Assembly: GCA_903846555.1 (NCBI GenBank)
Contig: CAINBI010000029.1
Coordinates: 1 to 34,056, forward strand
Reading direction: 5' to 3'
Source: an uncultured Pseudomonadota bacterium
Lineage (GTDB): Bacteria > Pseudomonadota > Gammaproteobacteria > Burkholderiales > Methylophilaceae
DNA: 34,056 nt
Under the pieces are notes generated by a model. That model saw only the letters and a program-made list of their open reading frames with translations. It made no database searches and had not been told where the DNA came from. The position numbers and the translations under genes are program-made. This document shows, piece by piece, positions 8,591 through 29,192 of the stretch (position 1 is the stretch's first letter; the number at the start of each line of letters is the position of its first letter).

Positions 8591-10111
8591 ATGAGTTTAG
8601 ATCTACTAAGAGGCCTTGGCGTAACAATACCTTACAAAGCAAAATACGATAATTTCATTGGTGGAAAATGGGTAGCGCCTGTTAAAGGTGAATACTTTGA
8701 TGTTATTACACCGATTACCGGCAAACCATATACGCAAGCGGCTCGCTCAAGTGCTGAAGACGTTGAGCTTGCATTAGATGCTGCGCACGCAGCGGCTGAT
8801 AAATGGGGCCGTACAGGAGCAGGTGAGCGGGCTAACCTACTGCTTAAAATTGCAGATCGGCTAGAAGCGAATCTTGAATTATTAGCCACTGCAGAAACCA
8901 TTGATAATGGCAAACCAATTCGTGAAACAATGAATGCTGATATTCCATTAGCCATTGATCACTTCCGTTACTTTGCTGGCTGTATGCGCGCCCAAGAAGG
9001 CAGTTTAAGTGAGATTGACGAAACAATGGTCGCTTATCATTTCCATGAGCCTATTGGTGTTATCGGTCAAATTATTCCTTGGAACTTCCCAATTTTAATG
9101 GCGGCTTGGAAGCTAGCGCCAGCGGTGGTTGCTGGTAACTGTGTAGTGATGAAACCAGCAGAATTCACACCAATAAGCATTTTGATTTTGATGGAATTAA
9201 TTGCAGATATCTTACCGCCAGGTGTCATTAACATTGTGAATGGTTACGGTCGTGAAGTAGGCGCACCATTGGCAAACAGCCGCCGTATAGGCAAAATCGC
9301 CTTTACTGGTTCAACGGCTACTGGCCGTGTTATTGCTCAAGCTGCAGCTTCAAACTTGATTCCAGCAACACTAGAATTAGGTGGCAAATCACCTAATATA
9401 TTCTTTGAAGACATTGCTGATGCGGACGATGACTTCTTTGATAAAGCCGTTGAAGGCCTTGTATTATTTGCTTTCAACCAAGGTGAAGTTTGTACCAGCC
9501 CATCGCGCGCATTGATTCAAGAATCTGTTTATGACAAATTCATGGAGCGCGTACTACCGCGCGTAGCGGCTATTGTGCAAGGCAATCCATTAGACTCTAA
9601 CACTATGATTGGCGCACAAGCATCACAAGATCAACTAAACAAAATCATGTCATACATGGACATTGGCAGACAAGAAGGCGCGCAAGTGCTTATTGGCGGC
9701 GAACGCAATGTATTAGGCGGCGCTTTTGCTGACGGTTATTACATTCAGCCCACATTGCTTAAAGGCAATAACAAAATGCGCGTGTTCCAAGAAGAGATTT
9801 TTGGCCCAGTGCTCGCAGTGACCACCTTTAAAGATGAAGCCGATGCGCTTGCGATTGCCAATGACACTGTATTTGGTTTAGGTTCAGGCGTTTGGACGCG
9901 TGATGGTAGCCGTGCTTATCGTATGGGTCGTGGCATTAAAGCGGGTCGCGTTTGGACTAATTGTTACCACGCTTACCCAGCACATGCTGCATTTGGTGGC
10001 TATAAAGAATCTGGTATTGGTCGTGAAACACACAAAATGATGCTGGATCATTACCAACAAACTAAGAATCTTTTAGTAAGCTATAGCCCTAAAAAACTAG
10101 GCTTTTTCTAA
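8591..10111 (+). CDS. NAD(P)-dependent aldehyde dehydrogenase (AldB/ExaC-like)
   Basis: This 506-residue aldehyde dehydrogenase oxidises an aldehyde to the acid with NAD(P). Catalytic residues are visible: Asn165 in PWNFP, Glu262 in LELGGKS and the nucleophile Cys301 in [12 protein letters not shown]. The NAD-binding FTGSTATGR and C-terminal EIFGPVLAV are also present. The NQGEVCT context, length and N-terminus fit the AldB/ExaC acetaldehyde-type subfamily. The DUF779 gene downstream is a known companion of that group. In a methylotroph the substrate could be acetaldehyde or another short aldehyde, but specificity cannot be read here. A GAGGAG ribosome-binding site precedes the ATG at good spacing. 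Confidence 0.93.
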
Positions 10112-10194
10112 TTTACGATTCATGTAAAGCAATATGCTACTAGCACTAATATCTTCATCTGATTTTGAAATAAAATTGCAAGAAGATTGATACT

Positions 10195-10221
10195 AAGAGG
10201 CGGTTAATCCGCCTCTTTTTT
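10195..10221 (+). terminator. Intrinsic terminator after the aldehyde dehydrogenase gene
   Basis: AAGAGGCGG (10195-10203), a 5-base loop and CCGCCTCTT (10209-10217) form a 9-bp GC-rich stem running into a T-tract. This is a textbook rho-independent terminator, 84 bases after the stop and before the DUF779 gene. Confidence 0.9.
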
Positions 10222-10236
10222 CGCCTTACATTTCAC

Positions 10237-10260
10237 AGTTAGTGTCATAGTTAGTGTCAT
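10237..10260 (+). repeat. Tandem 12-bp repeat upstream of the DUF779 gene
   Basis: AGTTAGTGTCAT occurs twice in direct tandem (10237-10248 and 10249-10260). It lies between the terminator and the ribosome-binding site of the next gene. It could be a regulator half-site array or a slippage duplication. Confidence 0.6.
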
Positions 10261-10283
10261 TTGTTATTTTTGGAGATTTTGTA

Positions 10284-10661
10284 ATGACTGAGCGCTTATC
10301 TGCAACGCCTTCTGCCATAGGCTTAATTCACAAACTCACCGCACAATATGGACCTATTTTATTCTTTCAATCGGGCGGATGTTGCGAAGGTAGCGTACCA
10401 CTTTGTATGCCCGTCAACGAATTCAAGCCTAGCCCGTCGGACGTAGTCTTAGGGGAGATTGAAGGCGCAGTTTTTTATATGGGCCATAATCACTTCCAGT
10501 TCTCAGAAAACACCCATACTATTTTAGATGCGCTACCTGGCTCAAGCGGCTCCTTTTCGCTAGACTGCGGGACTGGATTGGCATTTATTACACGGGGTCG
10601 CTTGTATAATGATGAAGAATTACAGCAACTTGGACCCGTTGTTCACTACGGCTATATTTAA
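10284..10661 (+). CDS. DUF779 family protein (aldehyde dehydrogenase companion)
   Basis: This is a 125-residue protein of the DUF779 family. The start at 10284 (MTERLSATPS) was chosen because GGAG lies 8 bases upstream. The frame opens 10 codons earlier but without a ribosome-binding site. The cysteine-rich FFQSGGCCEGSVPLC (Cys33, Cys34, Cys41) and the end segment SLDCGTGLAFITRGRLYNDEE are diagnostic. The family regularly sits beside acetaldehyde-type dehydrogenases such as exaC/adhB-linked genes. Its biochemical role is unknown, and the conserved cysteines suggest metal or thiol chemistry. Here it is 172 bases downstream of the dehydrogenase, beyond a strong terminator. Confidence 0.88.
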   Translation: MTERLSATPSAIGLIHKLTAQYGPILFFQSGGCCEGSVPLCMPVNEFKPSPSDVVLGEIEGAVFYMGHNHFQFSENTHTILDALPGSSGSFSLDCGTGLAFITRGRLYNDEELQQLGPVVHYGYI

Positions 10662-10806: not shown

Positions 10807-11475
10807 TCAAAAACCTAAATCAGCCAACAAATCATCAACCTGCTCTTGGCTTGCGACTACATCCACAGCGTCAGGGTCAACTTGCGGTCCATTTAACAGC
10901 GCAGCATTGACTACTATCTCCTTTTTAGGTGTCGCAGGGGAGAAATCAACCAACACCTGTACTAACTGCCGCTCTAAGTCTTGAGCTAAACTGGTGATTT
11001 TTTTTATCACCTGCCCTGTCAAATCTTGGAAATCCTGAGCCATCATAATATCCATCAACAAGGCTTTGGTTGCCGTCGTATGCTGACTTGTCATCGCTAA
11101 AAAAGCTAAAGTTTCTTCGGCCACTTGATTATATTCACTTTTCAAAGAGGCATTGCTTAGCGCTTCTTTCCAGCGCTCTTGCAATGCTATTGCGTCTGTG
11201 GCCAATTTAGTCTGCAAAGGAATCGCTTCATCGGTCGCATTTAATACTCGCTCGGCCGCCTGCTCTGTCATATGGGCAACATAATTAAGACGTTCGCGTG
11301 CATCAGGGATATCTTTAGCGACTTGATCTAACAGCTTGTCAAATCCCAAGCCTCTTAAGCTATCGTGCAAAGATCTAGTAACATGACCAATGCGATTAAG
11401 CATCTCTTCATTATGGTTTAATTCTGGCAGAACATCTGTAAGTGCAGCTTGCGGCTGTAAAAGTTTGCTTTTCAT
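10807..11475 (-). CDS. cheZ: Protein phosphatase CheZ
   Basis: This 222-residue phosphatase dephosphorylates CheY-P and so terminates the chemotactic signal. The long helical hairpin contains DIPDARERLNYVAHMTEQAA and the catalytic segment MMAQDFQDLTGQVIKKI. Asp151 and Gln155 are the D-x-x-x-Q pair that positions and activates water. The C-terminal peptide SQEQVDDLLADLGF is the amphipathic CheY-docking helix, almost identical to E. coli CheZ. It starts 2 bases after the cheY stop, with a G5 ribosome-binding site inside that overlap. It is the last gene of the chemotaxis cluster. Confidence 0.96.
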   Translation of the reverse strand: MKSKLLQPQAALTDVLPELNHNEEMLNRIGHVTRSLHDSLRGLGFDKLLDQVAKDIPDARERLNYVAHMTEQAAERVLNATDEAIPLQTKLATDAIALQERWKEALSNASLKSEYNQVAEETLAFLAMTSQHTTATKALLMDIMMAQDFQDLTGQVIKKITSLAQDLERQLVQVLVDFSPATPKKEIVVNAALLNGPQVDPDAVDVVASQEQVDDLLADLGF

Positions 11476-11477
11476 AT

Positions 11478-11876
11478 TTAGCCCCCAGCTTTCTCTAATT
11501 TCTCGAATATTTTAGTGAGCTTTTCATCCAATGTGGCCGCTGTAAAAGGCTTAACAACATAGCCATTTGCACCAGATTGAGCCGCAGCAACAATATTTTC
11601 TTTTTTTGCTTCAGCGGTCACCATCAATACAGGTAAGTGCTTCAGTTCAGGGTCTGCGCGAATATGCTGCAACATGGTTAAACCATCCATATTGGGCATA
11701 TTCCAATCTGAAACAACAAACTCAAACCCCCCCCCTTTAAGCTTACTTAGCCCGATAGCGCCATCTTCAGCTTCATCCACATTACTGTAACCAAGCTCTT
11801 TAAGCAGATTACGCACGATCCTGCGCATGGTTGAGAAGTCATCCACAACAAGAAATTTAGTATTTGGGTTAGCCAT
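11478..11876 (-). CDS. cheY: Chemotaxis response regulator CheY (CheZ-linked copy)
   Basis: This 132-residue single-domain receiver, when phosphorylated, binds the flagellar switch protein FliM. The acidic pocket VVDDF, the phospho-acceptor Asp57 in [12 protein letters not shown], the MVTAEAK Thr segment and VVKPF with the conserved Lys match E. coli CheY closely. This is clearly the canonical motor-binding CheY. A G9 run encodes Gly48-Gly50 (KGGGFEF). The reading frame is intact in this sequence, but the tract is a slippage risk. It is paired with cheZ, and GGAGTAA lies upstream of the ATG. Together they probably form a unit downstream of cheB. Confidence 0.96.
11727..11735 (-). repeat. G9 homopolymer inside cheY
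   Basis: C9 on the plus strand, read as GGG GGG GGG in the cheY coding strand. It is the longest G/C homopolymer I noticed in the window. Gain or loss of one base would frameshift CheY before Asp57. Confidence 0.9.
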
Positions 11877-12001
11877 GCATTACTCCGTAAAAAGTGGTCA
11901 TTCTTAGCATTCGATATTAGCGCCGATTAAAAATGAAAGGCATATTATGATTTTTTATTATTGACTAGATTTACTCAAGTCATACGCTAGATTAGCGACA
12001 T

Positions 12002-12016
12002 AAAAGCTTCGCTTTT
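12002..12016 (-). terminator. Weak hairpin downstream of cheB
   Basis: AAAAGC-ttc-GCTTTT (12002-12016) read on the minus strand lies 27 bases after the cheB stop, with a short T run in the 3' arm. It may attenuate transcription before the cheY-cheZ pair. Confidence 0.35.
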
Positions 12017-12042
12017 CATAGCTACTATATACTCGCTGATAG

Positions 12043-13113
12043 TTACACACGAAGCGCCGGTGTACTATTTAGTACCAAATAATTAAGTACTAGATTCGGT
12101 AAATCGCTTAAATGTGCAATTTGATCTACACCGCCTTGAGCAATTGCCTCTTTTGGCATACCATAAACTACACAGCTTTCTTCATTTTGCGCAAAGTTGT
12201 AAGCGCCTGCATTTTTCATTTGCGCCATGCCGACAGCACCATCTTTGCCCATTCCCGTCAAAATAACGCCTATGACATTTTTGCCAGCATAGGTCGCAGC
12301 AGAATCGAATAATACATCAACAGAAGGTTTATGACGATTTACAGGTGGTGCATCACTTAACTGGGTTACATAATTGGCCCCACTCCTAGCCAATAATAGA
12401 TGTTTATCTCCAGGGGCAATATAGGCATGACCAGGTAAAATGCGTTCACCGCCCTCAGCCTCTTTAACGGTAATCTGGCAAAGAGAGTCTAAGCGGTTTG
12501 CAAATGATTTAGTAAAACCAGCTGGCATGTGCTGCGTAATTAAAATGCCAGGGCAATCTGATGGCATCTGTAATAAGAATGATTTAATTGCTTCAGTACC
12601 GCCTGTAGAAGCGCCAATAATCAGTAATTTTTCGCTACTGATTATTGGATTACGTAATGGAGATGGCGCTATATTTTCAGATTTTATTGCAGATTTTCGC
12701 GGCAAGGATGTGATTCTTGCCTGTGAAGCAATTCGTATTTTATCGGCAATAATATCGGTATATTCACGCATTCCATCTGAAATGGACATTTTTGGCTTGG
12801 TAACGAAATCAATGGCGCCTAATTCAAGTGCCCGCATGGTAATCTCAGAGCCTCGTTCGGTTAGTGTAGAAACCATCACGACGGGCATAGGGCGTAAACG
12901 CATCAACTTTTCTAAAAAATCCAATCCATCCATCTTTGGCATTTCAACATCCAGCGTCAATACGTCTGGGTTCAACTGCTTGATCATATCGCGAGCAATC
13001 AATGGGTCAGGTGCTACGCCCACCACTTCCATATCGCTTTGACTATTAATAATTTCTGTTAACAGACTACGAATCAATGCAGAGTCATCTATAACCAACA
13101 CTTTAATTTTCAT
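12043..13113 (-). CDS. cheB: Chemotaxis protein-glutamate methylesterase/deamidase CheB
   Basis: This 356-residue adaptation enzyme removes methyl groups from chemoreceptor glutamates and deamidates glutamines when phosphorylated by CheA. The N-terminal receiver (about 1-120) has phospho-acceptor Asp55 in [13 protein letters not shown] linker of about 40 residues follows. The C-terminal esterase domain has the triad Ser169 ([11 protein letters not shown]), His195 (ITQHMPAGF) and Asp291 ([10 protein letters not shown]). Length and order are canonical. It follows cheD by 41 bases in the cheR-cheD-cheB run. Confidence 0.97.
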
Positions 13114-13154
13114 CTTAATTCTCTCATTATCATATTTGTAACCCTAATTCATCG

Positions 13155-13763
13155 TTAAAACAGATCAATCTCACCACCCACGCTAATCGATTTAAGCTTA
13201 CTTGCGTACTCTTCTTCACGTTTAACCAAGGTGTCGTTATGCATACCTCTCAACTTCTTAACTAATACTCTTCCCGTTTTTGGAAAGTAATATACTTTTC
13301 TTGGATAAATATCTAACAGATCTTCACTGATCACGCGAATACCTTCATCTTTAAGAAATTTTCTTACAAATATCGCATTACGATCACCAACATTGATAGT
13401 CGTGAAGCTTTTTAACACATTACCACCACCAAAAAGCTTCGCTTCTAGGTTCTCCCGCCTAGCACCATTGCGCAGTAATTGATTAATCAACACCTCCATA
13501 GCATAAGTACCGTAGCGCATAGACTCTGATACCGGACTATCCTTGTCAGCAGTCGCACTATCAGGCAGCATAAAGTGATTCATGCCACCTATGCCTGTTA
13601 CGGTATCGCGTATACACGCTGAAACGCAAGAGCCCAACACCGTAACAATGACCATATCTTTGTCGGTATAGTAGTACTCACCTGGCGAAATTTTTGCAGC
13701 CTCACAATCAAAAGTGCGGTCAAAATATAGTGTGGTGGAAATATCTTCTTGTAGCATGCTCAT
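13155..13763 (-). CDS. cheD: Chemoreceptor glutamine deamidase CheD
   Basis: This 202-residue deamidase acts on receptor glutamine side chains. The catalytic cysteine lies in VLGSCVSACIRD and the histidine in GIGGMNHFMLPD, with the conserved MRYGTYAMEVLIN and KLFGGGNVL following. The start codon overlaps the cheR stop as ATGA, which implies translational coupling, and Met3 is an alternative start. The protein ends SVGGEIDLF. This G-x-I-D-L-F tail is shared with the CheZ-like protein at 24958-25506 and may be a docking peptide. Confidence 0.95.
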   Translation of the reverse strand: MSMLQEDISTTLYFDRTFDCEAAKISPGEYYYTDKDMVIVTVLGSCVSACIRDTVTGIGGMNHFMLPDSATADKDSPVSESMRYGTYAMEVLINQLLRNGARRENLEAKLFGGGNVLKSFTTINVGDRNAIFVRKFLKDEGIRVISEDLLDIYPRKVYYFPKTGRVLVKKLRGMHNDTLVKREEEYASKLKSISVGGEIDLF

Positions 13764-14641
13764 ACAATTTTTTCTCGATTCTGCATTGCAGATTGTTTCT
13801 TATTTCTACCATCACTTAATTCATATACGGTTTTACCACGTAGATGAAAGGCGTTGGAAACATAGAGAAAGTTCTCAGAATGGCCTGCAAACAACAAGCC
13901 ATGCGGCTTCATCAATGGTACAAAATGACTGAGTATTTTTGATTGCGTTGGTTTATCGAAATAAATCATTACATTTCGGCAAAATATAGCGTCAAATGGC
14001 TCCTTTAGTGCCCACTGCTCATCTAGTAAATTAAGCTGGTTAAAGCTAATCAAGTTGCGCAATTCATTACGCACACGCACCGAACCCTCTTGTGCGCCTG
14101 TGCCTTTTTGAAAAAAATGTTTACGCCGCTCATCCGACAGCTTACTAACTCGCTCATACGGGTACACGCCACGCTCAGCCGTTGCAATGACATTGGTATC
14201 AATATCGGTAGCAATAATCTCAACGGGTGGCTTCATAGTACCAAAAGCTTCGCATGCCGTCATGGCGATGGTATAAGGCTCCTCACCAGTAGACGCAGCA
14301 GAACACCAAATTCGAATAGGTGCTTTGAGCTTTAATAAATGCTCTGCAAGTATTGGAAAATGGTGCTCTTCACGAAAGAATGAAGTTAAATTTGTAGTTA
14401 AGGCATTGGTAAATGCCTCCCACTCATCCGGGTTATTTTCACTTTCTAGGTTATCAAGATAACCTTTAAAAGAGTCATAGCCTACAGTACGTAACCTGCG
14501 TCCGATACGGCTATACACCATATCTGTCTTAGCTTCAGATAGAGAAATGCCTGCATGTTGATAGATGAGTTTGCGCACTCTAGAAAAATCGTTCGCTGTA
14601 AATTCAAACTCTCGATCATTGTGGTTTTTTTCTTTAAGCAT
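13760..14641 (-). CDS. cheR: Chemotaxis protein methyltransferase CheR
   Basis: This 293-residue enzyme methylates receptor glutamates with S-adenosylmethionine. The N-terminal helical domain (about 12-80) has FSRVRKLIYQHAGISLSEAK and RIGRRLR. The catalytic domain has the SAM motif IWCSAASTGEEPYTIAM, the ATDID acidic end of strand 2 and FCRNVMIYFD. Length and motif order are typical. It follows the Fae-like gene by 98 bases and overlaps cheD by 4 bases. A small hairpin (14667-14685) lies in its leader. The Aer-like receptor in the same cluster ends with the pentapeptide CheR docks on. Confidence 0.96.
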   Translation of the reverse strand: MLKEKNHNDREFEFTANDFSRVRKLIYQHAGISLSEAKTDMVYSRIGRRLRTVGYDSFKGYLDNLESENNPDEWEAFTNALTTNLTSFFREEHHFPILAEHLLKLKAPIRIWCSAASTGEEPYTIAMTACEAFGTMKPPVEIIATDIDTNVIATAERGVYPYERVSKLSDERRKHFFQKGTGAQEGSVRVRNELRNLISFNQLNLLDEQWALKEPFDAIFCRNVMIYFDKPTQSKILSHFVPLMKPHGLLFAGHSENFLYVSNAFHLRGKTVYELSDGRNKKQSAMQNREKIV

Positions 14642-14666
14642 TACAAACTCTCATCACATCAAAAGA

Positions 14667-14685
14667 AGGAATAGTACTTATTCCT
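14667..14685 (-). promoter_or_regulatory. Small hairpin in the cheR leader
   Basis: On the minus strand AGGAATA-agtac-TATTCCT is followed by TCTTTT. It could partially terminate transcription between the Fae-like gene and cheR, but the stem is only 7 bp and AT-rich. Confidence 0.3.
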
Positions 14686-14739
14686 ATATTTTTCATTTGC
14701 AGGCATTCATCAAAAAGCATGCTCCGTAACACCCGATAA

Positions 14740-15432
14740 TTAACCCTTGCTTGGTGTTAATGGATTACGTTCCCTCATCTCACTCACTGCTACATCAGCA
14801 GGATCTGTCGCTCGTGGTGTGACATTAAACGGATTACGATGTCTCATCTGACTAATTGCGGTATCTGCTACTCTTCTATTGCGATCTTCTTTGTTTTTAG
14901 CCGCAAATGGATGAGAGCTATCTTTATAGACCTTAAGGAGATCAGCCGCTTTTGGCTCACGGGCTACTGCGCTCTTAATTGCAATTTTTGTCGCTTCATA
15001 ATTCCAATCCTGAATACGATCATCCATATCCGCAGTTTGATCAATAAATACACCAATACAGATAAAAATATCGTCTGCCTCTTCTACTGGAATAGTGCCA
15101 TCAGCTACACAGTCCATCACTGCCATAGAAATACCGCGCTGTGCTGGGCCAAACATTTGTAAAGATTGTTTGGTGTTTCTAAGTGTTACTTTATTGAACA
15201 TAACAGTATTTGGTTTAACCATCATATTTGGCGCAATAATCGCTAACAAGCCATTGACACCTTCTTTTTGATCAGTTAACGTGCGACAAAAAGCATCTTC
15301 AGCAGCACTGCCGCGTGGGCCCATAATTAAATCAATGTGCGCTACATTTTTAAGATCCAAACTGTCGCTACCATTTGGACGATTCTCAATGACTAAACCT
15401 TCTCCAACTAAAACACGATCAATAACAGCCAT
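14740..15432 (-). CDS. Formaldehyde-activating enzyme homologue with repeated C-terminal tail
   Basis: This 230-residue protein has residues 1-178 matching Fae, which condenses formaldehyde with tetrahydromethanopterin. Seen: VAHIDLIMGPRGSAAEDAF with the catalytic His32, IIAPNMMVKPNTVMFNKVT, MFGPAQRGISMAV, IPVEEADDIFI, WNYEATKIAIKSAV and SSHPFAAK. It differs from canonical Fae in an insertion of about 9 residues (about 16-28, just before the catalytic His) and an extra tail of about 50 residues. The tail repeats a unit with 23-residue spacing: ADTAISQMRHRNPFN (189-203) and ADVAVSEMRERNPLT (212-226). It is encoded between a chemoreceptor and cheR, all co-oriented, with a GGAG ribosome-binding site. 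Fae activity is possible because His32 is present, but the context suggests a role in sensing or taxis. That is inference. Confidence 0.92.
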   Translation of the reverse strand: MAVIDRVLVGEGLVIENRPNGSDSLDLKNVAHIDLIMGPRGSAAEDAFCRTLTDQKEGVNGLLAIIAPNMMVKPNTVMFNKVTLRNTKQSLQMFGPAQRGISMAVMDCVADGTIPVEEADDIFICIGVFIDQTADMDDRIQDWNYEATKIAIKSAVAREPKAADLLKVYKDSSHPFAAKNKEDRNRRVADTAISQMRHRNPFNVTPRATDPADVAVSEMRERNPLTPSKG

Positions 15433-15540
15433 TTTATTTCTCCTGAATATTAAAATTTATTACTTCTAAAATTAGCATCGCTAGATTGCTTTGCTGTTCG
15501 CCTAACTATTGAAACCTTACCACTACAATTTCACAGCAAG

Positions 15541-17631
15541 CTAACCATTACTTAGTAGCTTGTACTGAGCTCTATTTCCGTTGTTATTTTCTTCCAAACT
15601 AAACACACTCACCGCATTCATCAACTCATCAGCTTGCTCCATCATTGATTCTGCCGCTGCTGCCGCCTCTTCTACTAAAGCAGTGTTTTGCTGGGTCACA
15701 TCGTCCATCTTCATCACTGCGTCATTAACTTGTTCTATGCCTGCGCTTTGTTCACTTGAGGCTGCAGCAATCTCAGCAATGATGTCTGATACACGTTTTA
15801 CTGAAATCACGATCTCTTGCATGGTGTTGCCTGCATGCTCCACTTGTCTTGTGCCTTCCGCCGTTTTGCTGACAGAGTCGGCAATCAACTCTTTGATCTC
15901 TTTGGCTGCACTGGCTGAGCGCTGTGCTAAATTACGCACTTCGCCTGCCACTACGGCAAAGCCTCGGCCTTGCTCTCCAGCTCTTGCGGCTTCAACTGCA
16001 GCATTTAGCGCTAGGATGTTGGTTTGAAAGGCGATGCCGTCAATCACAGAGATGATGTCTTCAATCTTTTTAGCACTGGTGTTAATGGAGCTCATGGTGG
16101 TGACGACTTGAGAAACCACATCTCCGCCTTTTATCGCGACGCCAGAGGCTGCGCTAGCCAGTTGGTTGGCTTGTTTGGCGTTATCCGCATTCTGTTTAAC
16201 GGTGGAAGAGAGTTGTTCCATGCTGGCAGCCGTTTTTTCTAGGGAGGCTGCTTGCTCTTCTGTGCGTCGTGATAAGTCGGCATTGCCTTGGGCAATTTCC
16301 TTAGCCGCTGTGCTGATGGTTTCTACCGCAACTTTAACCGTAGCAATCGGGCCGACAATCATTTCTAGCGTCTCATTGACGCCTGCTACAATTTTGCTGA
16401 AATCACCTTGGTGATTGCTTGCATCGGCACGTACTGAAATCCGGCCTTGATGCGCTGCATTAGCCAACATTTGTACATCATTATTGAGTGCTTTCAGGTT
16501 GCTACGCACCTGCTCAATCGCCTCATTTACAAAGGCCTTTTTATTCGGAAATTTTTCTAACGGCGCATCAAAGTTACCTTCGCCGAATTCTTTGACGCAA
16601 GCTAAAGCCTTTTCTGTAAGTTCAATTTGTCCGCCCACAATATTATTCACGGCTGTAGCAATCTCGCTAAAACCACCTTTAAACATGTGCGCATGTAAAG
16701 TCATATCTATATTGCCCAACGCATGTTCGTTGGTGACCCATTTCACGGAGTCTACGATGCCTTTTAGCTTGGTTTTGAGTCGATCTAGCTTCTTATTAAT
16801 CTCTGCCTTTTTACCAGGGTATTGCTGAATTTGTGCATCAAAGTCACCATCACCAAGCGCATGCATCAATATAACAATCTGCTCTTTTTCTTGCACATGT
16901 GCCGCTACCATGGCGTTTACGCCATGTACCATTTGCGCATATGCACCTGCAAACTTCGCCTCGTCCATGGCAACATCAATTTCACCAGCATCATGCTGCT
17001 CGGCCATATGATGCATATCAGCAATAAAGGTTTGAATATTACTGCGTAACAATTCTATACCGTCATTGATAAAGACACGCTGACCAGAGAAGCGCTCTAA
17101 CGGCGCATCAAAATTACCTTTGGCAAACGCTGCAATGCACTGTGTAGTTTTGCGCATCACTTCGGCTTGATGCGCGGTCATGGCATTCATGTTTTCCGCC
17201 ATCGTTTTATAGCTGCCTTCAAATTTATCGACATCAATGTTGGCACCGAGGTTGCCAGCCTTGTTTTGTGCCGTGATATTCAACAGATCTTCAATCACTG
17301 ACCTTAGGCTTTGCTGCAGCGTATGCATAGAGGCCATTAAACTTGTGCTATCACCACGATTTAATGTGATGGTTGAATTTAAATGACCATTTGCAATTTG
17401 TTTTACTACATTAACGGCATCATCTGGCTCACCGCCAAGCTGCGCTAGTAAACTTCGTCCAATGTAATAGGCCGACATCACGGTTGCCAGAGCCGCCAGA
17501 AGCACGAGTGCAATGACCATCAACTTGTCTTGTGCAACCAGGCCTTTTTGAAGACTTAAGAAACCTGCAGAAAGCAACAAGGCAATCGTTGGAATCGCAG
17601 TCAACAACATCAATTTTGCTTTTGTATTCAT
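15541..17631 (-). CDS. Methyl-accepting chemotaxis protein with poly-HAMP array
   Basis: This 696-residue chemoreceptor lacks a periplasmic sensor domain. Two hydrophobic helices (about 8-27 and 36-58) are separated by a short loop. Residues about 60-430 form a cytoplasmic array with an exact 90-residue period. G-[NHD]-[FL]-[DN] starts (GNFDAPLE type) fall at 82, 172, 262 and 352. A second motif type (GEIDVAM type) falls at 126, 216, 306 and 396. Each 90-residue unit fits a pair of HAMP-like modules. The signalling domain (about 430-670) contains the hairpin tip [20 protein letters not shown]. The C-terminus has no CheR pentapeptide. It sits between the Aer-like receptor and the Fae homologue. 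The signal is presumably intracellular or membrane-derived, and unknown. Confidence 0.93.
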
Positions 17632-17671
17632 ACTCGCTTCTCTTTTTTAAAATTAGTCAGCTTTGCAGCTA

Positions 17672-17697
17672 TTGGGATAAACTAGACCTTATCCCAA
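17672..17697. repeat. Perfect inverted repeat between the two receptor genes
   Basis: TTGGGATAA (17672-17680) and its complement (17689-17697) are separated by 8 bases in the 95-bp gap between the receptors. There is no T-tract. It may be an mRNA-processing or partial-termination hairpin, or an operator upstream of the poly-HAMP receptor gene. Confidence 0.55.
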
Positions 17698-17726
17698 ACC
17701 TGACTATGGTTTATAGACACGTATTA

Positions 17727-20700
17727 TTAAAACTCTTCCCAGTCACCGTCATTAGTACCAGTTTTAACCGCTATCTTTGCCAATACTTTGGTTGCTACTG
17801 GTCTAGACGATGAGGTGCTAGGTGCTATGCGCACTGGAGAACGGCCTGCTGACGACTTAACGAGCGTTTTTCTGCCAGCACTTCCATTCAATTGAAAGGC
17901 ACTTACCACCTCTATTAAGCTCACAGATTGGTCAACTAACGATTCGGCAGCAGCAGCAGCTTGTTCAACTAGCGCTGCATTTTGCTGAGTCACTTCGTCC
18001 ATGCTGGTAATCGCATCATTCACTTGATCAATTCCCGCGCTTTGTTGTGTTGATGCTGCAGATATTTCACCCATAATGTCTGTCACACGCTGTACTGATG
18101 ACACGATTTCACTCATTGTTCTACCAGCATCTTCAACAAGTTTTGTACCGACATCTACTTTTGATACTGAGTCAGAAATAAGCTCTTTAATCTCTTTTGC
18201 CGCATTAGCTGAGCGTTGTGCTAAATTGCGCACTTCGCCCGCTACCACAGCAAAACCTCGGCCTTGTTCACCTGCTCTTGCCGCCTCTACTGCTGCGTTT
18301 AGTGCAAGAATGTTGGTTTGGAAGGCAATACCATCAATCACACTAATAATGTCTACAATTTTTCGTGAGCTGGTATTAATTTCTAGCATGGTGCTGGTAA
18401 CTTGATTCACTACTGCACCCCCTTTCACCGCAACGCCTGAAGCGGCAGCGGCGAGTTGATTGGCTTGTTTCGCATTTTCCGCATTTTGTTTTACTGTGCT
18501 AGCGAGCTCCTCCATGCTTGAAGCTGTTTCTTCCAAAGAGGATGCCTGTTGCTCAGTACGTGAAGATAGATCACTATTGCCAGACGAAATTTCACCCGCT
18601 GCGGTATTAATCGTTTCACCAGCCTCTCTGACCTGAAGAATCACCTCGGTCATTTTATCCATCAGCGCATTAACACCATCACACAGACTAGCGATGGCAC
18701 CTGTTTTTCCTTGTAGTGAGACACGGTTGGTTAAATCACCTGCTTTGGCATCGGCAATCACGCTCTGAGTTTCTTCTACGGCATCAACCAAAATTGCTGC
18801 ATTGTCGTGTTGCTCGGTAATATCAGTCGAGTATTCCACTACTTTAAACGGCTTACCGTTTAAATCCATAATCGGGTTGTAGCTAGCCTGCAACCAAATT
18901 TCTTTACCGCCTTTTGCGACGCGTTTGTATTGACCTACTTCAGATTCTCCGCGAGCGAGTCTTTCCCAGAACGCTTTGTATTCATGGCTACTACGGTAAG
19001 CTGGCTCTACAAACATGCTGTGATGACTACCAATAATCTCTTTTTCACTATAAGCAACTACGCGACCAAAGTTGTCATTCACCGCAATGACTTTCCCCGT
19101 AAGGTCAAATTCAATCACACCTTGAATCTTGTCGATTGCTGCAATTTGCCCTGCATTATCTGCCGCTTGAAGCTTTTGCTCGGTAATATCTATCGTGTAA
19201 TTGACTATTTTGTAGGGCTTACCATTCAAATCATAAATTGGGTTGTAAGAAGCTTGAATCCATACCTCTTTGCCACTTTTGGCGATGCGTTTGTATTGCC
19301 CAGCATCGCTACCACCACTGACCAATTTATTCCATAGTGCGCCATAGGCTGCGCTCTTAGCAAAAGTAGGGTCTAACACCATGCTGACATGCTTTCCAAT
19401 CAGCTCATTTTCGGCATAGCCTAACATTTGTAAATAAGAAGTATTGACTTTAAGCACAGTGCCGTCTAGCGCAATTTCAATCACACCTTGCGATTTACCA
19501 ATGGCATCAATCTGACCTTCAAAGTCTGCATTTCTATTTTTCTGCTCAGTCACATCTGTCGCGTATTTCACCACCTTGTAAGGCTTACCTGTTGCGCACA
19601 ATATAGGGTTGTAAGAAGCTTGCAGCCAAACATCTTTACCGTTTTTACCCACCCGTTGAAACTCACCAGAGATTGATTCGCCGCGATTGAGTTTTTCCCA
19701 AAACTGTTTGTAATCGTTGCTTGTACGATAATGGGCATCGACAAAGTTGCTATGTGGCTGACCAAGCACCTCACTCAAATTGTAACCGAGTACTTTTAAG
19801 AAAATGTCATTGGCGGCAATCACTTCACCGTCCAAGCTAAATTCAATCACGCCAGTTGATTTGCTAATCGCAGCCAATTGGCCTTCATATTGGGTAGATT
19901 GTTCTTCTACCTTTTGTGCTAGCTCTCTTGCTGCATTAAGATTAACGTTAAGCATCGTTTGCGTGGTTTTTAATGATTGCAACACACGGCTTAACTCATC
20001 ATCACCATGCACATCAATCGGCGTATCCAGTTTATTAGATGCAATATCACGGAACACTGCAATGGCTTTTTCTAAAGGTTTAGTAATCGATCTTGTAATC
20101 ACAAAACCAAGCCACATCATTAACGCAACAGCCAGTGTAAGCCCAGAAAACGTCACTAAGCGTAACGTTTCATAATGCTTAACCGCCGCAGTGTACATTT
20201 TCTTCGCTTCACGACTTTGTAAAGCAAGTAATGCTTCAATGTCTGGGCCAGCGGCATTGTAAAGCTCACGCACGGTGACTGCTTGCGCTCTACTCGTTGC
20301 ATAATTTTGCGCGCGTAAAGCAACAATCATGGGGTTTAAACCCTCCTTAACAAACTTTCCACGACTATCCGCGAACTTATCTGCCAGAATTTTTTCTTCT
20401 GGGGTTAAATAAGTCGCCAAGTATTTTTTCCATATCCCGCCAATAGTCACTATGTTGGCTTCAATCGCATCGGCTGCTTTTGTAGCTTCTAATGGCGTCA
20501 TCACCACAGAAAGTTTTTTGTCGTTGGTTTGAGCAGTGACCTCACTTAGCGCAGTTCTTAATTGCGTTCTATTTTCCAGCATCAAGGCATGAATTTTGGC
20601 TAAATCTTCGACTGGCACCATACGGTCTTCATAAACGCTATTTAAAGCTTTATTGGCAACCGATAAGTTATAAAGCCCTAAACCCGCCTGAGCAAGCATT

Positions 20701-21239
20701 ACCATCACAGCCAAAGCAACAATACTGGTGAGGCGTTGTGATGTTTTTAAACTCAGTAATTTGGTTTTAATTTTATACGTCAGTGAATTTTGTATGACTT
20801 CGCCATCAACAATGCGTAAGCCTTGGGCTTTACCATCTTTAAACAATCGGTAAGCGGCTGTCGCAGATTCTACTTGCTGGCGGCTTGGTTTTCTGCGTGC
20901 AGAAAGGTAGCCAGTCACCTGACCATTTTCAAAGATAGGTGCAGCGTTTGCCATCACCCAATAGGAATCACCTGCTTTAGTCCGATTTTTAACCATGCCC
21001 GTCCACGGCTTGCCTGCCCTTAGTTGGAGCCACATATCTGCAAAAGCTTCTATTGGCATATCTGGATGGCGCACTAAATTATGGTTTGAACCTACAAGCT
21101 CAGCCTCGCTAAAGCCGCTGATTTTAATAAAGTCCTGGTTGGCGTAGGTAATAGTGCCTTTAATATCTGTTTTGGTGAGCATGAACACTGCATCATCAAA
21201 GATGATTTCATTATTGGTCACTGGCATGTTTATTTTCAT
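17727..21239 (-). CDS. Aer-like chemoreceptor with four PAS domains and a four-helix-bundle sensor
   Basis: This is a 1170-residue receptor. Residues 1-120 closely match the E. coli Aer PAS domain, including the FAD-contacting NLVRHPDMP (Arg57, His58, Asp60) and [19 protein letters not shown], so redox/energy sensing is likely. A membrane helix (about 172-192), a 4HB_MCP-type periplasmic domain (about 195-358) and a second helix (about 362-382) follow. Then come HAMP (about 383-435) and three similar PAS-PAC repeats (about 455-567, 577-689, 699-811), each with VIE(F/I) near the start, [10 protein letters not shown] and a TDITEQ end. A linker and signalling domain (about 880-1110, tip [21 protein letters not shown]) complete it. 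The C-terminal DWEEF is a CheR-docking pentapeptide. It is 92 bases after cheW. Confidence 0.94.
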
Positions 21240-21331
21240 GGCAATCTACTCTCTCTTATGGTTTCTCAATCAATTAAAGTTATTTCTGCTACTTCAGTGG
21301 TTTTGTTACTTTTTTTATTAAATTCTTCCTA

Positions 21332-21841
21332 TTAATGCAAAGCCACACTGTCTATCAGCGCCATTTCCTGGCTGCTCATTAATTGTTCAATATCCACCAA
21401 AATCAGCATCTGCGCTTCTACCGTGGCTAGACCAACAATATATTTAGTATCAATACTGGTCACTAACGATGGCACATCGCGTATTTGGTCATCTCTTAAG
21501 GCCATTACGTCAGACACACCATCAACCACAATACCAACCACGCGACCATTTAGATTTAAAATAATCACCACAGTGAATTCATCGTATTGCACTTTTCCCA
21601 AGTGAAACTTGATACGCAAATCAACAATCGGCACGATTTTTCCGCGTAAATTCACAACCCCTTTAATAAATTCTGGCGTATTGGCAATTTGCGTCACGGC
21701 ATCGTAACCACGAATCTCTTGAACTTTTAAAATTTCTAAACCGTACTCCTCTTCACCCAAAACAAATGTCAGGTATTCACCCGCTGCACTTTTGGCTTTG
21801 CTTGGTGTATTGGCTGTGCTGCTAGCAGTTTCTGTACTCAT
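21332..21841 (-). CDS. cheW: Chemotaxis adaptor protein CheW
   Basis: This 169-residue adaptor couples receptors to CheA. One CheW domain covers about residues 23-160: [59 protein letters not shown] and a C-terminal [11 protein letters not shown]. The N-terminus (about 1-20) is a low-complexity Ser/Thr/Ala segment. It starts 12 bases after the cheA stop with GGAG 8 bases upstream, so it is translated with cheA. Confidence 0.96.
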
Positions 21842-21853
21842 TTTGTAAGCTCC

Positions 21854-24169
21854 TTAGGCGTTGCTTGATTGGGTTGTATGGTTTGCGTTATTAGTGAACG
21901 ACATTGCGCCAGTGAGGTAATTGGTTGATTGACCCATTTGAATGAGTGCGGCTATGTCTAAAATCAGTGCAACACACCCATCACCCATGATGGTAGCGCC
22001 TGATACGCCAGGCACTTTTCTATAATTAGTTTCTAAGCTTTTAATTACCACCTGTTGCTGACCGACTAACCTGTCGACAAACAAGGCGGATTTCTTGCCG
22101 TCCGACTCGACAAGCACTAATACGCCTAACGTTGGGTCGGTAATGTCAGTGTGCTGATTAAACAGGCTATGCAACGCGATGATGGGTAAGTATTCGCCGC
22201 GCACATGCACCATACGACCTTCACCTGTCACGGTTTTAATGTCTTCAGCCCGTGGTTGCAGAGTTTCTACAATCAAATTCAATGGAATGACATAAATGCT
22301 GTCGCCTAGTGAGACTGACATGCCATCTAAAATGGCTAAGGTGAGCGGTAGCGCAATGGAGATCGTAGTACCAAAACCTAATGCTGATCGAATCTCAACC
22401 ACTCCGTTCATCGCGCTGATGTTTCGTTTGACAACATCCATACCTACGCCACGGCCAGAAACATCGGTTACCACTTCTGCAGTAGAAAATCCTGGGGCAA
22501 ATATCAGCGCAAACACTTCGCTATCTGACATATTCTCACTAACAACTAAGCCATTTTTGGCGGCTTTATCTAATAGCTTGGTTCTATTCAAGCCGGCGCC
22601 ATCATCGGTCACCTCAATCACAATGCAGCCGCCTTTGTGTGCAGCAGATAGCGTTAATACGCCAATTTCACTTTTTCCAGCAGCTCTGCGTTGTTCTGGA
22701 ATTTCTATACCGTGATCAACACTATTCCGTACTAAATGGGTGAGTGGGTCGACAATGCGTTCGATGAGGCCTTTATCTAATTCAGTGGCTGCACCGACTG
22801 TGACGAACTCAACTTTTTTACCTAACTTGGCAGCAAGGTCTCGTACCATACGAGGAAAGCGTGAGAAAACAAAATCTATAGGCATCATACGGATCGACAT
22901 GACTGATTCTTGCAGGTCACGCGTATTGCGTGTGAGTTGCCCTACGCTATTAATCAAAGGTTCATGCAACAACGGGTCTAGGTGGCTAATGCGTTGCTCT
23001 ATCATAGCTTGCGTAATCACCAACTCGCCAACCAAGTTAATCAGTTGATCTACTTTTTCGATGCCGACACGAATCGATGAGGTTTCTATATTCGCTGGAG
23101 CTTTGTCTGAATCACGGCGACCAGAAATTCTTTTTTCTACAGACCCGGTAGTTTGGGCAGCGACGATATCTACCGCAGCGACCCCTGAGTTAGCTTCGGT
23201 CATTACCGTATCGTCACCGATAAGGGCGGTTATAACGGCATCAGGATGTGGTCTAAATGGCGCGAAAAAACCGTAGCCCTCTTCATCATTACCATCTTCT
23301 GAGAATAAACCGTAGCCATTCTCCTCTTCAATCTTAATCTTAGATAAATTATTGAAAGATTCTGATTCTTTTTCAGCTGCAATAGGGACGGCAACAACCA
23401 CTGAGACGGGAGCTGCCAAAATAGGAGTCGCTGAAACAGGAGTCGCTGAAACAGGCGCCAATGAGATAATTAAGTCGTCCGGGTCTAACACGAAAGAACA
23501 AATTGAAATTATATCGGCTTGAGATGAATCTGTAGTTAATACAAACACATAACGGCCATGTGCATTTTTACTGGGAACCACATCACCCAAAAGGCCAAGC
23601 TCTTCCTCAAGATTACTGGCATCTTTATCTGAAATTTCTGGCAAGTAAATATGAAATTGTGTCAGCCCGTCAGTACGCATCTGCGGTTGCTGGAGTGCTT
23701 GTTCTGGTATAGCAGCAATAATAGAGATTGGCGCTGGCTTTTGTGCAATAGACACGTTTGCTGGCTTAATCACAAGGCCACCAGCTTCCGCCAGTGAATT
23801 CAACATCATTTTAACATCCGCCACCTGCTCTTGATCAACAACAGCCGCTACTCGGTGACCATCGACTTCCATTTTAAGCACGTCTTTAGCCGCCAAAAAT
23901 GCATCAACATGCTCTGCGGTCAATGCCATCTCATTTTTTCGAATTTTATCCAGCAGATTCTCTAGCACATGCGTAATTTCCGTCATGTCTATAAAGCCGA
24001 AAGTTGCAGCTCCACCCTTTATAGAATGGGCTGCACGAAAAATCGCATTCAACTCCTCAGTGTCAGGGTTGTCAATTTCGATACCTAGCAGCAGTCTCTC
24101 AGCCTCAGCTAATAGCTCTTCCGCCTCATCAAAAAAGACCTCATAAAACTGACTCATATCAATTGTCAT
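21854..24169 (-). CDS. cheA: Chemotaxis sensor histidine kinase CheA
   Basis: This 771-residue kinase phosphorylates CheY and CheB under receptor control. The N-terminal Hpt (P1) has the phospho-acceptor His48 in FRAAHSIKGGAATFGF. A P2-like domain (about 170-238) presumably binds response regulators. A Pro/Val/Ala linker contains a short tandem repeat, and the GYGLF/GYGFF linker motifs follow. P3 starts near SIRVGIEKVDQLINLVGELV. The P4 ATPase has the N-box LVRNSVDHGIE, DDGAGL, and VSGRGVGMDVVKRN. P5 (CheW-like) ends the protein. A GGAG 7 bases upstream supports Met1. It lies between cheY-2 and cheW. Confidence 0.97.
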   Translation of the reverse strand: MTIDMSQFYEVFFDEAEELLAEAERLLLGIEIDNPDTEELNAIFRAAHSIKGGAATFGFIDMTEITHVLENLLDKIRKNEMALTAEHVDAFLAAKDVLKMEVDGHRVAAVVDQEQVADVKMMLNSLAEAGGLVIKPANVSIAQKPAPISIIAAIPEQALQQPQMRTDGLTQFHIYLPEISDKDASNLEEELGLLGDVVPSKNAHGRYVFVLTTDSSQADIISICSFVLDPDDLIISLAPVSATPVSATPILAAPVSVVVAVPIAAEKESESFNNLSKIKIEEENGYGLFSEDGNDEEGYGFFAPFRPHPDAVITALIGDDTVMTEANSGVAAVDIVAAQTTGSVEKRISGRRDSDKAPANIETSSIRVGIEKVDQLINLVGELVITQAMIEQRISHLDPLLHEPLINSVGQLTRNTRDLQESVMSIRMMPIDFVFSRFPRMVRDLAAKLGKKVEFVTVGAATELDKGLIERIVDPLTHLVRNSVDHGIEIPEQRRAAGKSEIGVLTLSAAHKGGCIVIEVTDDGAGLNRTKLLDKAAKNGLVVSENMSDSEVFALIFAPGFSTAEVVTDVSGRGVGMDVVKRNISAMNGVVEIRSALGFGTTISIALPLTLAILDGMSVSLGDSIYVIPLNLIVETLQPRAEDIKTVTGEGRMVHVRGEYLPIIALHSLFNQHTDITDPTLGVLVLVESDGKKSALFVDRLVGQQQVVIKSLETNYRKVPGVSGATIMGDGCVALILDIAALIQMGQSTNYLTGAMSFTNNANHTTQSSNA
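23423..23452 (-). repeat. 15-bp in-frame tandem repeat in the cheA linker
   Basis: AGGAGTCGCTGAAAC (plus-strand reading) occurs twice head to tail, followed by a partial third copy. It encodes repeated V-S-A-T-P units in the flexible P2-P3 linker, so copy-number change would keep the frame. Confidence 0.85.
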
Positions 24170-24312
24170 TGCCGCACTCCATCTGTATTTATTCTGCTAC
24201 CCAATTTTATTTTCTACACGACCCTTGTGAAGGAGGTATCTTTACATCACGAAAATTCGTAGCCTATAACCGGTATTATTTAGTGGACTAAAGGCCACAT
24301 CTACAAATACAG

Positions 24313-24681
24313 TTAAGATCCAATAACTTTTTGCACTACTTCGATCAAGCGCTTGGGGTCAAACGGCTTTACCAACCAGCCATTAGCACCTGCAGCTTTT
24401 CCTTTAGCTTTCATTTCATCACTTGACTCCGTGGTAAGCATTAGAATTGGCACTTTTTGATAAGAACTTAACCCACGCAGATGCTTAATCAGCGTTAATC
24501 CATCCATAATCGGCATATTTTGGTCGGTAAGCACTAGGTCAACCGTCTTTTCCGTGGCTTTAGTTAAACCATCTTGCCCGTCAACTGCCTGTATCACATC
24601 ATAACCCGCAGCCTTTAGACTAAAGGCCACCATCTGGCGAAGAGAACCTGAGTCATCGACTGCTAGAATTGTTTTTGCCAT
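24313..24681 (-). CDS. Second CheY-like response regulator (CheA-linked copy)
   Basis: This is a 122-residue single-domain receiver. Seen: LAVDDSGSLRQMVAFSLKAAGY, phospho-acceptor Asp53 in LVLTDQNMPIMDGL, LMLTTESSDEMKAKGKAAGANGW and VKPFDP with the conserved Lys. The DSGSLRQM N-terminus and TDQNMP motif are typical of the CheY that lies directly upstream of cheA in many proteobacterial clusters. It is diverged from the CheZ-linked CheY. It may act as a phosphate sink or an alternative output, and motor binding is uncertain. It is 143 bases upstream of cheA. Confidence 0.93.
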   Translation of the reverse strand: MAKTILAVDDSGSLRQMVAFSLKAAGYDVIQAVDGQDGLTKATEKTVDLVLTDQNMPIMDGLTLIKHLRGLSSYQKVPILMLTTESSDEMKAKGKAAGANGWLVKPFDPKRLIEVVQKVIGS

Positions 24682-24957
24682 TTCATACGCTCACTTTTTC
24701 GTTGTAAATCTAGTTCGTTGTTAATAAGGTACTAAAAATTTCAAAATACCAGTAAGTTAAGAAATCTCTGATTAAAATTAAAACTCGTCATCCCGACTAG
24801 AATCGGTATCAGACCACCTTAAAGACTTTGAACACCGAAGCTCTTCCATTCAAAAATGTTCATCAGTCACCACTATGCACTTTTAGGTGTTTTGAAAAGT
24901 CCACTACTACTCAACCTGTATATAACGGCGGGTATTTCCTGAAGTTTAGCCACTAAT

Positions 24958-25506
24958 CTAAAATAGATCGATGTCGCCAGAAGCCATATCTTGCTGCCCT
25001 ACCGAATGCTTCAACCCCCCTGAAAGCGCACTACTCCCAGCATCTAAACTATGGTTCATACCTTCAAGAAACTTGACTATCATTTCATGCTCATGCTCTG
25101 GGTTTATTTCGTCACTTTGATTACCCAACTCTTTAAGTAGGTCTTTTAACCCGTTCACATGATTAATCGTTTTTGCCAGCAATTGGCTTGTTAGGTCTTG
25201 GAATTGTAAGCCAGTCACTACGGCGCACATTTCATCACCAATCCTCTGCTTTAACGCTTCAAGTTGCTCTGCATCTTCGCTATCAAACTGATGCGCCGTC
25301 ATTAAGCGTTCAATAAAGTTTTGTTGGTCACAAACGAGCTTATGCACAGCCATAAAATTCAGCCCTAGATTTTCAACGGCATCATTTTGCAAACCATTGA
25401 TTTGCTGTAAATCAACCGCCACCTCGCACAAATGCCGCTGACCGTGATCAGACACTGCCGTGAGTAAGCTTCGCAATTCTGCTGTTGCTAATGTTTTCAT
25501 ATGCAT
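24958..25506 (-). CDS. CheZ-like helical protein, putative second CheY-P phosphatase
   Basis: This 182-residue, strongly helical protein is encoded between motB and cheY-2. The segment VTGLQFQDLTSQLLAKTI aligns with the CheZ active-site helix. It keeps the D-x-x-x-Q pair (Asp104, Gln108) that CheZ uses on CheY-P. The N-terminal CheZ signature is absent and overall similarity is low. The C-terminus SGDIDLF is the same kind of tail as CheD's GGEIDLF and stands where CheZ has its CheY-docking peptide. A phosphatase or CheY-binding role is inferred. Met1 and Met3 are both possible starts. A 276-bp gap with no recognised feature separates it from cheY-2. Confidence 0.75.
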   Translation of the reverse strand: MHMKTLATAELRSLLTAVSDHGQRHLCEVAVDLQQINGLQNDAVENLGLNFMAVHKLVCDQQNFIERLMTAHQFDSEDAEQLEALKQRIGDEMCAVVTGLQFQDLTSQLLAKTINHVNGLKDLLKELGNQSDEINPEHEHEMIVKFLEGMNHSLDAGSSALSGGLKHSVGQQDMASGDIDLF

Positions 25507-25563
25507 ACAATTATGTCCCTAAATACTTAATATCAATTAGATGAATACATCCAATAAAACCAA

Positions 25564-26526
25564 CTAATTCAACTTTCTTGTTACTGGCAGAGGTTGCGCA
25601 AGCACTGCGCTACCAATGTCTTCATGGCTTGCATCTGAAGCAACGCTAACCGCACCATCATCTTTTAATGCATTTTCTTCAGCTTTTTTATTCATAATAA
25701 TAATGCTGATGCGGCGGTTATTAGCGTTAAAGGGATTCTCTTTATCAAACAAAGATGCTGAGGAAAGCCCGACCACACGCAATAATTTTGTTTCATCCAT
25801 ACCGCCCGCGATGAGTTCGCGCCTAGAAGCATTGGCCCGATCTGCTGACAACTCCCAATTACTATATGATTTTTCTCCATTGGGGTAAGGTGTTGCATCC
25901 GTGTGGCCAGATAGACTTATTTTATTGGTAACGCCATTTAGCATCTCTCCAATTTGCTTCAAAATAACTTGTGCGTAAGGCTGCATTTCGGCCTTAGAAG
26001 AGTTAAACATAGGTCGGTTCTGATCATCGACAATCTGCACACGCAAGCCTTCAGTAGTAATGTCCAATAAAAGCTGGCTCTTAAACTTACTTAATGTCGG
26101 ACTATCTTCAATCGCTTTTTCAATTTTCTTTTTAAGCTCTTCAAGTTTTACTTTTTCAGCTTTTTCTAGTGCTTTTTTCATATCATCTATTTCAACCACT
26201 TTTTTCTTACCATTAGGTCCATCAACGGGTTTTACCTGTCCTTGCTTTTTAGTCATGTCTTTGCCTCCACCACCTTTAATTAAGGTGTCACTGGCCCCCA
26301 CTGAACTACCACCCATTAACGCTACATTTAATGGCGTTCTAAAATATTGTGAAATACCTTCTAACTGTGGTTTTGAAGTGGATCCTAAAAGCCACATCAA
26401 CAAAAAGAACGCCATCATTGCCGTCACAAAGTCGGCATAAGCGATCTTCCACGCACCACCATGATGGCCTGCCGCTGTTTTTTTAATCTTTTTAACAACA
26501 ATCGGTCTAACGCGAACTTCAGCCAT
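25564..26526 (-). CDS. motB: Flagellar motor stator protein MotB
   Basis: This 320-residue stator subunit anchors to peptidoglycan and carries protons with MotA. The N-terminus contains GGAWKIAYADFVTAMMAFFLLMWLLG, with the single membrane helix and the essential proton-accepting Asp32 at the same position as in E. coli. A Gly/Lys-rich plug and linker (about 50-150) follow. The OmpA-like peptidoglycan-binding domain (about 155-285) shows ISLSGHTDATPY and LSADRANASRREL and ends with NRRISIIIMNK. It is 43 bases after motA and was probably translated from the same message. Confidence 0.97.
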   Translation of the reverse strand: MAEVRVRPIVVKKIKKTAAGHHGGAWKIAYADFVTAMMAFFLLMWLLGSTSKPQLEGISQYFRTPLNVALMGGSSVGASDTLIKGGGGKDMTKKQGQVKPVDGPNGKKKVVEIDDMKKALEKAEKVKLEELKKKIEKAIEDSPTLSKFKSQLLLDITTEGLRVQIVDDQNRPMFNSSKAEMQPYAQVILKQIGEMLNGVTNKISLSGHTDATPYPNGEKSYSNWELSADRANASRRELIAGGMDETKLLRVVGLSSASLFDKENPFNANNRRISIIIMNKKAEENALKDDGAVSVASDASHEDIGSAVLAQPLPVTRKLN

Positions 26527-26569
26527 GACATGCTCTGCAATCAGCCATTATTTTCTGAGTTAGCATCTA

Positions 26570-27430: not shown

Positions 27431-27595
27431 ACTTGCGGACTCCAGAATAGGAAATATTATTTCCTGCGGCTTATTATCTAAATAATAGCAATGCGGTGCA
27501 AAAATCAATTCGTGGATTAAAGGGATATTTTAGGGCTTACAATTCATTTGGTACTTTTCATAACGGCATAATGAAGCGTACAGAAATTAAAAAAG

Positions 27596-28414: not shown

Positions 28415-28495
28415 CTGTGACGAAACATCTTATTAAAGTACATATTGCAGCAAGAGAAATATATTGAGTAGATTATCCAGACTAAAAACCTTAAT

Positions 28496-29053: not shown

Positions 29054-29192
29054 AACGCTCTCCATTGTTCAGCAGCATTTTATTGGTGAATTATGACTGT
29101 TGAATACACTACTTTTGCCACTATTTATCCTGACTATCTATCCAGTACATTTAAACTTATCAGCAGGACTTCTTATAAAAACAGGGCGATAT

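Follow-up and report, generated by a model that had tools for sequence, protein, structure and literature searches.

The gene for a formaldehyde-activating enzyme (fae) in the window, by which we mean the whole stretch of 34,056 nucleotides analysed here, is probably that of the cell's working, abundant Fae, relocated once into a chemotaxis (che) operon. Its linkage to cheR goes far beyond chance, as 23 of the 24 genomes of the genus with a CheD match have fae in this place. The conserved tail at the C-terminus of the protein is found almost only on che-linked Fae and provides a handle to separate a role in taxis from the role in metabolism.

Table 1. Features in and around the fae gene of the window.
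Feature	Position	Strand	Basis or remark
fae, formaldehyde-activating enzyme, 230 aa	14740..15432	(-)	matches to PF08714, TIGR03126 and 1y5y
Fae domain, aa 9-176	14905..15408	(-)	Pfam stretch, coordinates by arithmetic
His32 codon, His of the VAHIDL motif	15337..15339	(-)	aligned to 1y5y
C-terminal tail, aa 177-230	14743..14904	(-)	nearly confined to cheR-linked Fae
Tail repeat 1, DTAISQMRHR, aa 190-199	14836..14865	(-)	motif search
Tail repeat 2, DVAVSEMRER, aa 213-222	14767..14796	(-)	motif search
cheR	13760..14641	(-)	PF01739, 1.7e-56; directly downstream of fae
cheD	13155..13763	(-)	PF03975, 7.3e-34
cheB	12043..13113	(-)	PF01339, 6.7e-67
Presumed cheY	11478..11876	(-)	relatives in the same place; name assumed
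Presumed cheZ	10807..11475	(-)	relatives in the same place; name assumed
Chemoreceptor with poly-HAMP array	15541..17631	(-)	MCPsignal, HAMP_N3; upstream of fae
Chemoreceptor with PAS domains and TarH	17727..21239	(-)	profile matches
fae-cheR spacer, 98 bases	14642..14739	(-)	without terminator-like site
Receptor-fae spacer, 108 bases	15433..15540	(-)	AGGAGA just before the start codon

Profile scores above the cut-offs and an aligned histidine place the window protein in the Fae family. PF08714 matches residues 9-176 (E 2.9e-59, 200 bits against a cut-off of 27), and TIGR03126 scores 193 bits where 118 would suffice. In a phmmer alignment with the Fae structure 1y5y (E 3.4e-54), His32 coincides with the histidine of the VAHIDL motif, the residue which we take to be catalytic in M. 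extorquens Fae. This His (AHIDL) is invariant in the alignment of 25 chosen Fae rows, and dN/dS of the Fae core is 0.00-0.05 in all 11 close pairs, which share sequences among them. The initial annotation was right in describing a Fae homologue with its His32 that lies between a chemoreceptor and cheR in the orientation of about 15 motility genes: 15 such genes, several under names that we assume, occupy the minus strand from 10807 to 29510. Its statement that genes of the tetrahydromethanopterin (H4MPT) pathway are lacking holds for the window, in which none was seen, but not for the genome, whose contig C14 carries mch and genes for an Mpt_N protein, an ATP-grasp protein and a GHMP kinase. 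The presence of mch and the Mpt_N protein rules out that this Fae occurs in a genome without the H4MPT pathway.

The host assembly (2.58 Mb in 170 contigs, 99.89% complete) has one further Fae-like gene, on contig C115 (L088, 4603-5145). Its product belongs to the same Pfam family, is 33% identical to the window Fae and has Met at the place of the motif His. As this copy still scores above the TIGR03126 cut-off, annotation by TIGR03126 alone would name it Fae. The window Fae is the sole His-bearing Fae found in the 170 contigs, among which a gene may have been missed.

This status, the conservation of the core and the codon use speak in the first place for an ordinary enzyme made in abundance, which is why we prefer to read the window gene as that of the working Fae. 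With codon weights taken from 24 ORFs of one genome's ribosomal-protein region, some of which are not ribosomal proteins (e.g., a secY-like ORF), the codon adaptation of fae is 0.67, the highest of the 27 window genes scored and above all 35 background ORFs (maximum 0.65). The ORFs of the ribosomal region, being the codon reference itself, range from 0.60 to 0.83, and the che genes together lie at 0.54-0.60 (cheR 0.58). Of 23 related loci, 22 have a fae that scores above the average of the neighbouring che genes, and in 17 it outscores every one of them; in the 38 named loci among the best 80 of 310, whose genomes overlap with the former set, the respective numbers are 37 and 32. The advantage is small or absent in L042, L047, L053 and L054. 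Where a genome has a second Fae of 53-55% identity, the che-linked copy is the higher one in eight of eight cases (0.67-0.76 vs 0.57-0.62); with second copies of 71-73% identity it is higher in G010 (0.60 vs 0.54) and equal in G035 (0.56).

We searched 101 genomes, 52 of them from the genus of the window, with Fae, MCH and CheD, and compared 58 neighbourhoods. The order fae-cheR-cheD-cheB-cheY-cheZ recurs in Methylotenera and Methylophilus, which rules out that the linkage is unique to this one genome, the outcome named in the initial annotation as speaking against its reading. CheD is matched in 24 of the 52 genus genomes, and the fae genes directly before cheR in 23 of these, the window's included, are orthologous, with at least 79% identity. 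The remaining genome, G034, has a contig edge 738 bases ahead of cheD, which hides the place of fae. A genome of another genus (G057) likewise has fae before cheR. The gene upstream of fae is a receptor in many loci and argG in six (L037-L040, L057 and L058, by gene order; confirmed by Pfam in L038); the remaining loci have a contig edge or another ORF (L042) there. Among the best 80 of 310 loci from named genomes, cheR lies directly downstream of fae in 38, while 41 are without cheR, and a 39th che locus (L122) ends after fae and has receptors upstream. The 41 include Methylobacillus, Methylovorus, Novimethylophilus and Methylophaga as well as four named Methylotenera (L138, L139, L151, L176). 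When ten genes of one H4MPT cluster (L062) are scanned as markers in these best 80 of 310 loci, at least two occur in 36 of the 41 unlinked loci and none in the other five (L138, L141, L151, L152, L176), nor in any of the 39 che loci.

The linkage of fae to chemotaxis genes and the idea of a signalling function are already in print, the linkage since at least 2013, when mmol_1253 was placed in a sensing/chemotaxis cluster (PMC3728764, as far as accessible). The accessible parts of PMC4109929 describe one fae in a conserved chemotaxis cluster of its new organisms and of Methylotenera, fae within H4MPT clusters instead in Methylovorus and Methylobacillus, and an ecotype without a true Fae. The window gene is another member of this set, with the same gene, kind of cluster and bacterial family, and what we could consult of both accounts is silent on tail, codon bias, tree and association with CheD. 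The tail and the co-occurrence of Fae with chemotaxis are the parts not found in print; literature outside subscription papers, as far as accessible, yielded neither a description of a Fae tail nor a mechanism for the linkage. Planktonic Methylophilaceae are reported to have lost motility, with formaldehyde oxidation among the redundant functions reduced (PMC6794327, in part). According to the accessible text of PMC5023235, Methyloversatilis FAM5 requires fae1, and not fae2 or fae3, for growth on C1 compounds, and its fae1 mutants yielded revertants on methylamine.

Across the genus, the occurrence of His-bearing Fae follows that of CheD rather than that of mch, a pattern confounded by descent and genome shrinkage. 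We counted as true Fae the copies more than 50% identical to the window Fae (G047 was scored positive from two fragments, and a 50-residue fragment of G041 was left out). True Fae is present in 24 of 24 genomes with CheD vs 8 of 28 without (Fisher p 3e-8) and, among the 35 genomes at least 90% complete, in 22 of 22 vs 5 of 13 (p 5e-5), p values that are weakened by descent, genome reduction and incomplete assemblies. Over the same 52 genomes mch and true Fae are unassociated (p 1). True Fae is missing from 20 of the 52, of which 19 retain mch, so the H4MPT pathway may run without a His-bearing Fae, and fae seems to follow chemotaxis. The distant paralogues, which we take to resemble Fae2/Fae3, share the Pfam family (C115 copy) but differ at the motif: all 42 inspected copies, 22 of them from 19 genomes with only such copies and 20 from 13 further genomes, lack the His and have AMPE or AEPE in place of AHID. 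In those 13, out of the 23 genus genomes with che-linked fae, no second copy exceeds 50% identity; the che-linked Fae is their only true Fae, all of their 20 distant copies are without the motif His, and mch is present in 12.

The tree of 96 Fae rows, for which the tail was excluded from the alignment, implies two changes in che-linkage and three in the tail. The 43 che-linked rows and G029 cluster together (support 90/70, not starred), and support rises to 100/96 when three unlinked, tail-less rows are added; the window Fae groups with L098 and L099 (97/92). The che group branches from within Fae whose loci mostly bear H4MPT/RuMP markers (36 of 41 named, among the best 80 of 310). We interpret this as consistent with a single origin of the linkage. 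A single origin would by itself account for all linkage seen, and fae may have landed in the che operon neutrally and stayed by descent, its tail having a purpose apart from chemotaxis, for instance in binding other H4MPT enzymes. Retention of the tail motif RRATDK in G029 (L051), whose fae has lost the cheR neighbour, agrees with such a history, and where genomes shrink, fae and che could simply have been deleted together. We nevertheless consider a neutral relocation rather unlikely, as the gene upstream of fae varies by lineage while fae-cheR persists, and as G029 is the only break of linkage inside the che group of the tree.

The tail distinguishes the che-linked proteins from the Fae of H4MPT/RuMP clusters in Methylobacillus, Methylovorus, Novimethylophilus and Methylophaga, with which they have the Fae domain and the His motif AHI[DE]L in common; among the best 80 of 310 named loci, 40 of the 41 unlinked Fae have no RRxxD tail, their last residue being at most a few positions from HPF. 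In the tree set RRxxD (RRVAD in the window) is present in 42 of 43 che-linked rows vs 2 of 53 others, and tail and linkage are concordant in 93 of 96 rows. The exceptions are L117 (G030), linked without a tail, L164, unlinked and tailed (SRRAEDN), and the G029 locus. Longer tails also bear one or two copies of A[IVL]xxMxxR: among the 24 distinct long tails (one of the 25 rows in the repeat analysis is a truncated Fae fragment) 20 have two copies and four have one, and the two repeats are alike at p < 0.05 in 17 of the 20, L100, L101 and L104 being exceptions. Short tails retain RR and D only, and many Methylotenera have just a short, RRATDK-like form. Residues N185, R186, R187, D190, A192, I193 and R199 are invariant in 15 aligned long-tail rows, outside of which L105 has Val at the position of I193. 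Purifying selection acts on the long tail: dN/dS is 0.05-0.36 in 10 of 11 close pairs and not computable in one (pairs share sequences). An AlphaFold model from 25 rows predicts weak helices at 192-197 and 211-220; its mean pLDDT of 62 makes it too weak for a fold search. The tail is not common to other proteins of the host genome, where a 57-residue query matched only itself, and A[IVL]xxM[KRQ]xR occurs in 33 Fae and two others of 1776 ORFs from the compared loci, some genomes being counted twice.

Of all features, the near confinement of the tail to the che-linked group speaks most for a putative partner protein, and a physical link of Fae to the chemosensory machinery is possible. The tail would then parallel the C-terminal pentapeptide by which chemoreceptors tether CheR and CheB (PMC7390727, PMC7698151, each seen in part), an analogy of recruitment to a Che partner; by eye the two show no likeness, and the Fae tail does not share the DWEEF end of the PAS receptor. 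Fae could in this way serve as sensor or adaptor, taking its input from formaldehyde or the H4MPT pool and altering adaptation once its tail has docked to a receptor, to CheR or to a further Che protein, as has been proposed in outline before (a signal transduction role, cited in the accessible parts of PMC4109929 and PMC3728764). The persistence of fae-cheR beside changing upstream genes, the tail in 38 of 39 named che loci vs 1 of 41 others (best 80 of 310), its low dN/dS and the co-occurrence of His-bearing Fae with CheD all speak for such a function. Against it stand the codon use of fae, well above that of cheR in the window, the tail-less G030 and the short form of many Methylotenera. 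Moreover, since linkage and tail each have essentially one origin, their association is not replicated evidence; an independent-pairs test finds only two pairs, as a rule one concordant and one without difference, too few to have any power. Also, according to the part of PMC10613068 available, a fae1 fae2 hgd mutant of Methylobacterium 22A, a strain in which fae may stand apart from che, retained methylotaxis and formtaxis. We therefore judge a sensor or adaptor unlikely. The C1-sensor reading of the initial annotation keeps its homologue, position, orientation, His and conserved linkage, whereas codon use, core conservation and the status as only His-bearing copy favour an ordinary enzyme first. 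Similarly doubtful is a double-duty enzyme, anchored by its repeats at the chemosensory machinery, with taxis reading the formaldehyde flux into H4MPT directly as a cytosolic input. Binding of the tail to a Che protein, if it occurs, would couple motility to the key step of methylotrophy at formaldehyde.

Under the preferred reading, of a working and abundant Fae, the enzyme would join formaldehyde to H4MPT and be made in large amounts. Its gene would have moved, probably once, from an H4MPT-type cluster to just before cheR, presumably in the ancestor of the Methylotenera/Methylophilus group, and the protein would have gained a C-terminal tail of RRxxD and short helix-like repeats that may bind a partner. 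The probable gain is joint production of the formaldehyde sink with the enzymes of chemotaxis adaptation, with fae and cheR presumably sharing expression. The requirement of FAM5 for fae1 on C1 compounds agrees with this reading. An ordinary enzyme needs no che-specific tail, which counts against it, as do the 19 genomes that retain mch without true Fae, the FAM5 revertants on methylamine and the loci with little or no codon advantage.

No sigma-70-like site was found in the receptor-fae spacer and no terminator-like site in 14600-15700, where the only promoter-like match lies within fae and is fewer than the shuffled mean of 3.3. The fae-cheR spacer is strongly structured in many relatives (L035-L058, z to -6.6); the window spacer has z -0.1, and a structured spacer was dropped as a feature of the window.

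The che cluster is adjoined at 8591-10661 by genes for an ExaC-type aldehyde dehydrogenase and a DUF779 protein, a pair that also stands beside che in many Methylophilus and some Methylotenera loci. In G029 the tailed fae is divergent from a CheW / CheR-TPR / CheW / receptor cluster (L051, 9811-15298), away from cheRDBYZ. The C-terminus of the PAS receptor is DWEEF, which we assume to resemble the CheR/CheB pentapeptide of other receptors. CheD ends in EIDLF and a second small protein of the che region (24958-25506) in DIDLF; their common IDLF end is perhaps a C-terminal docking motif.
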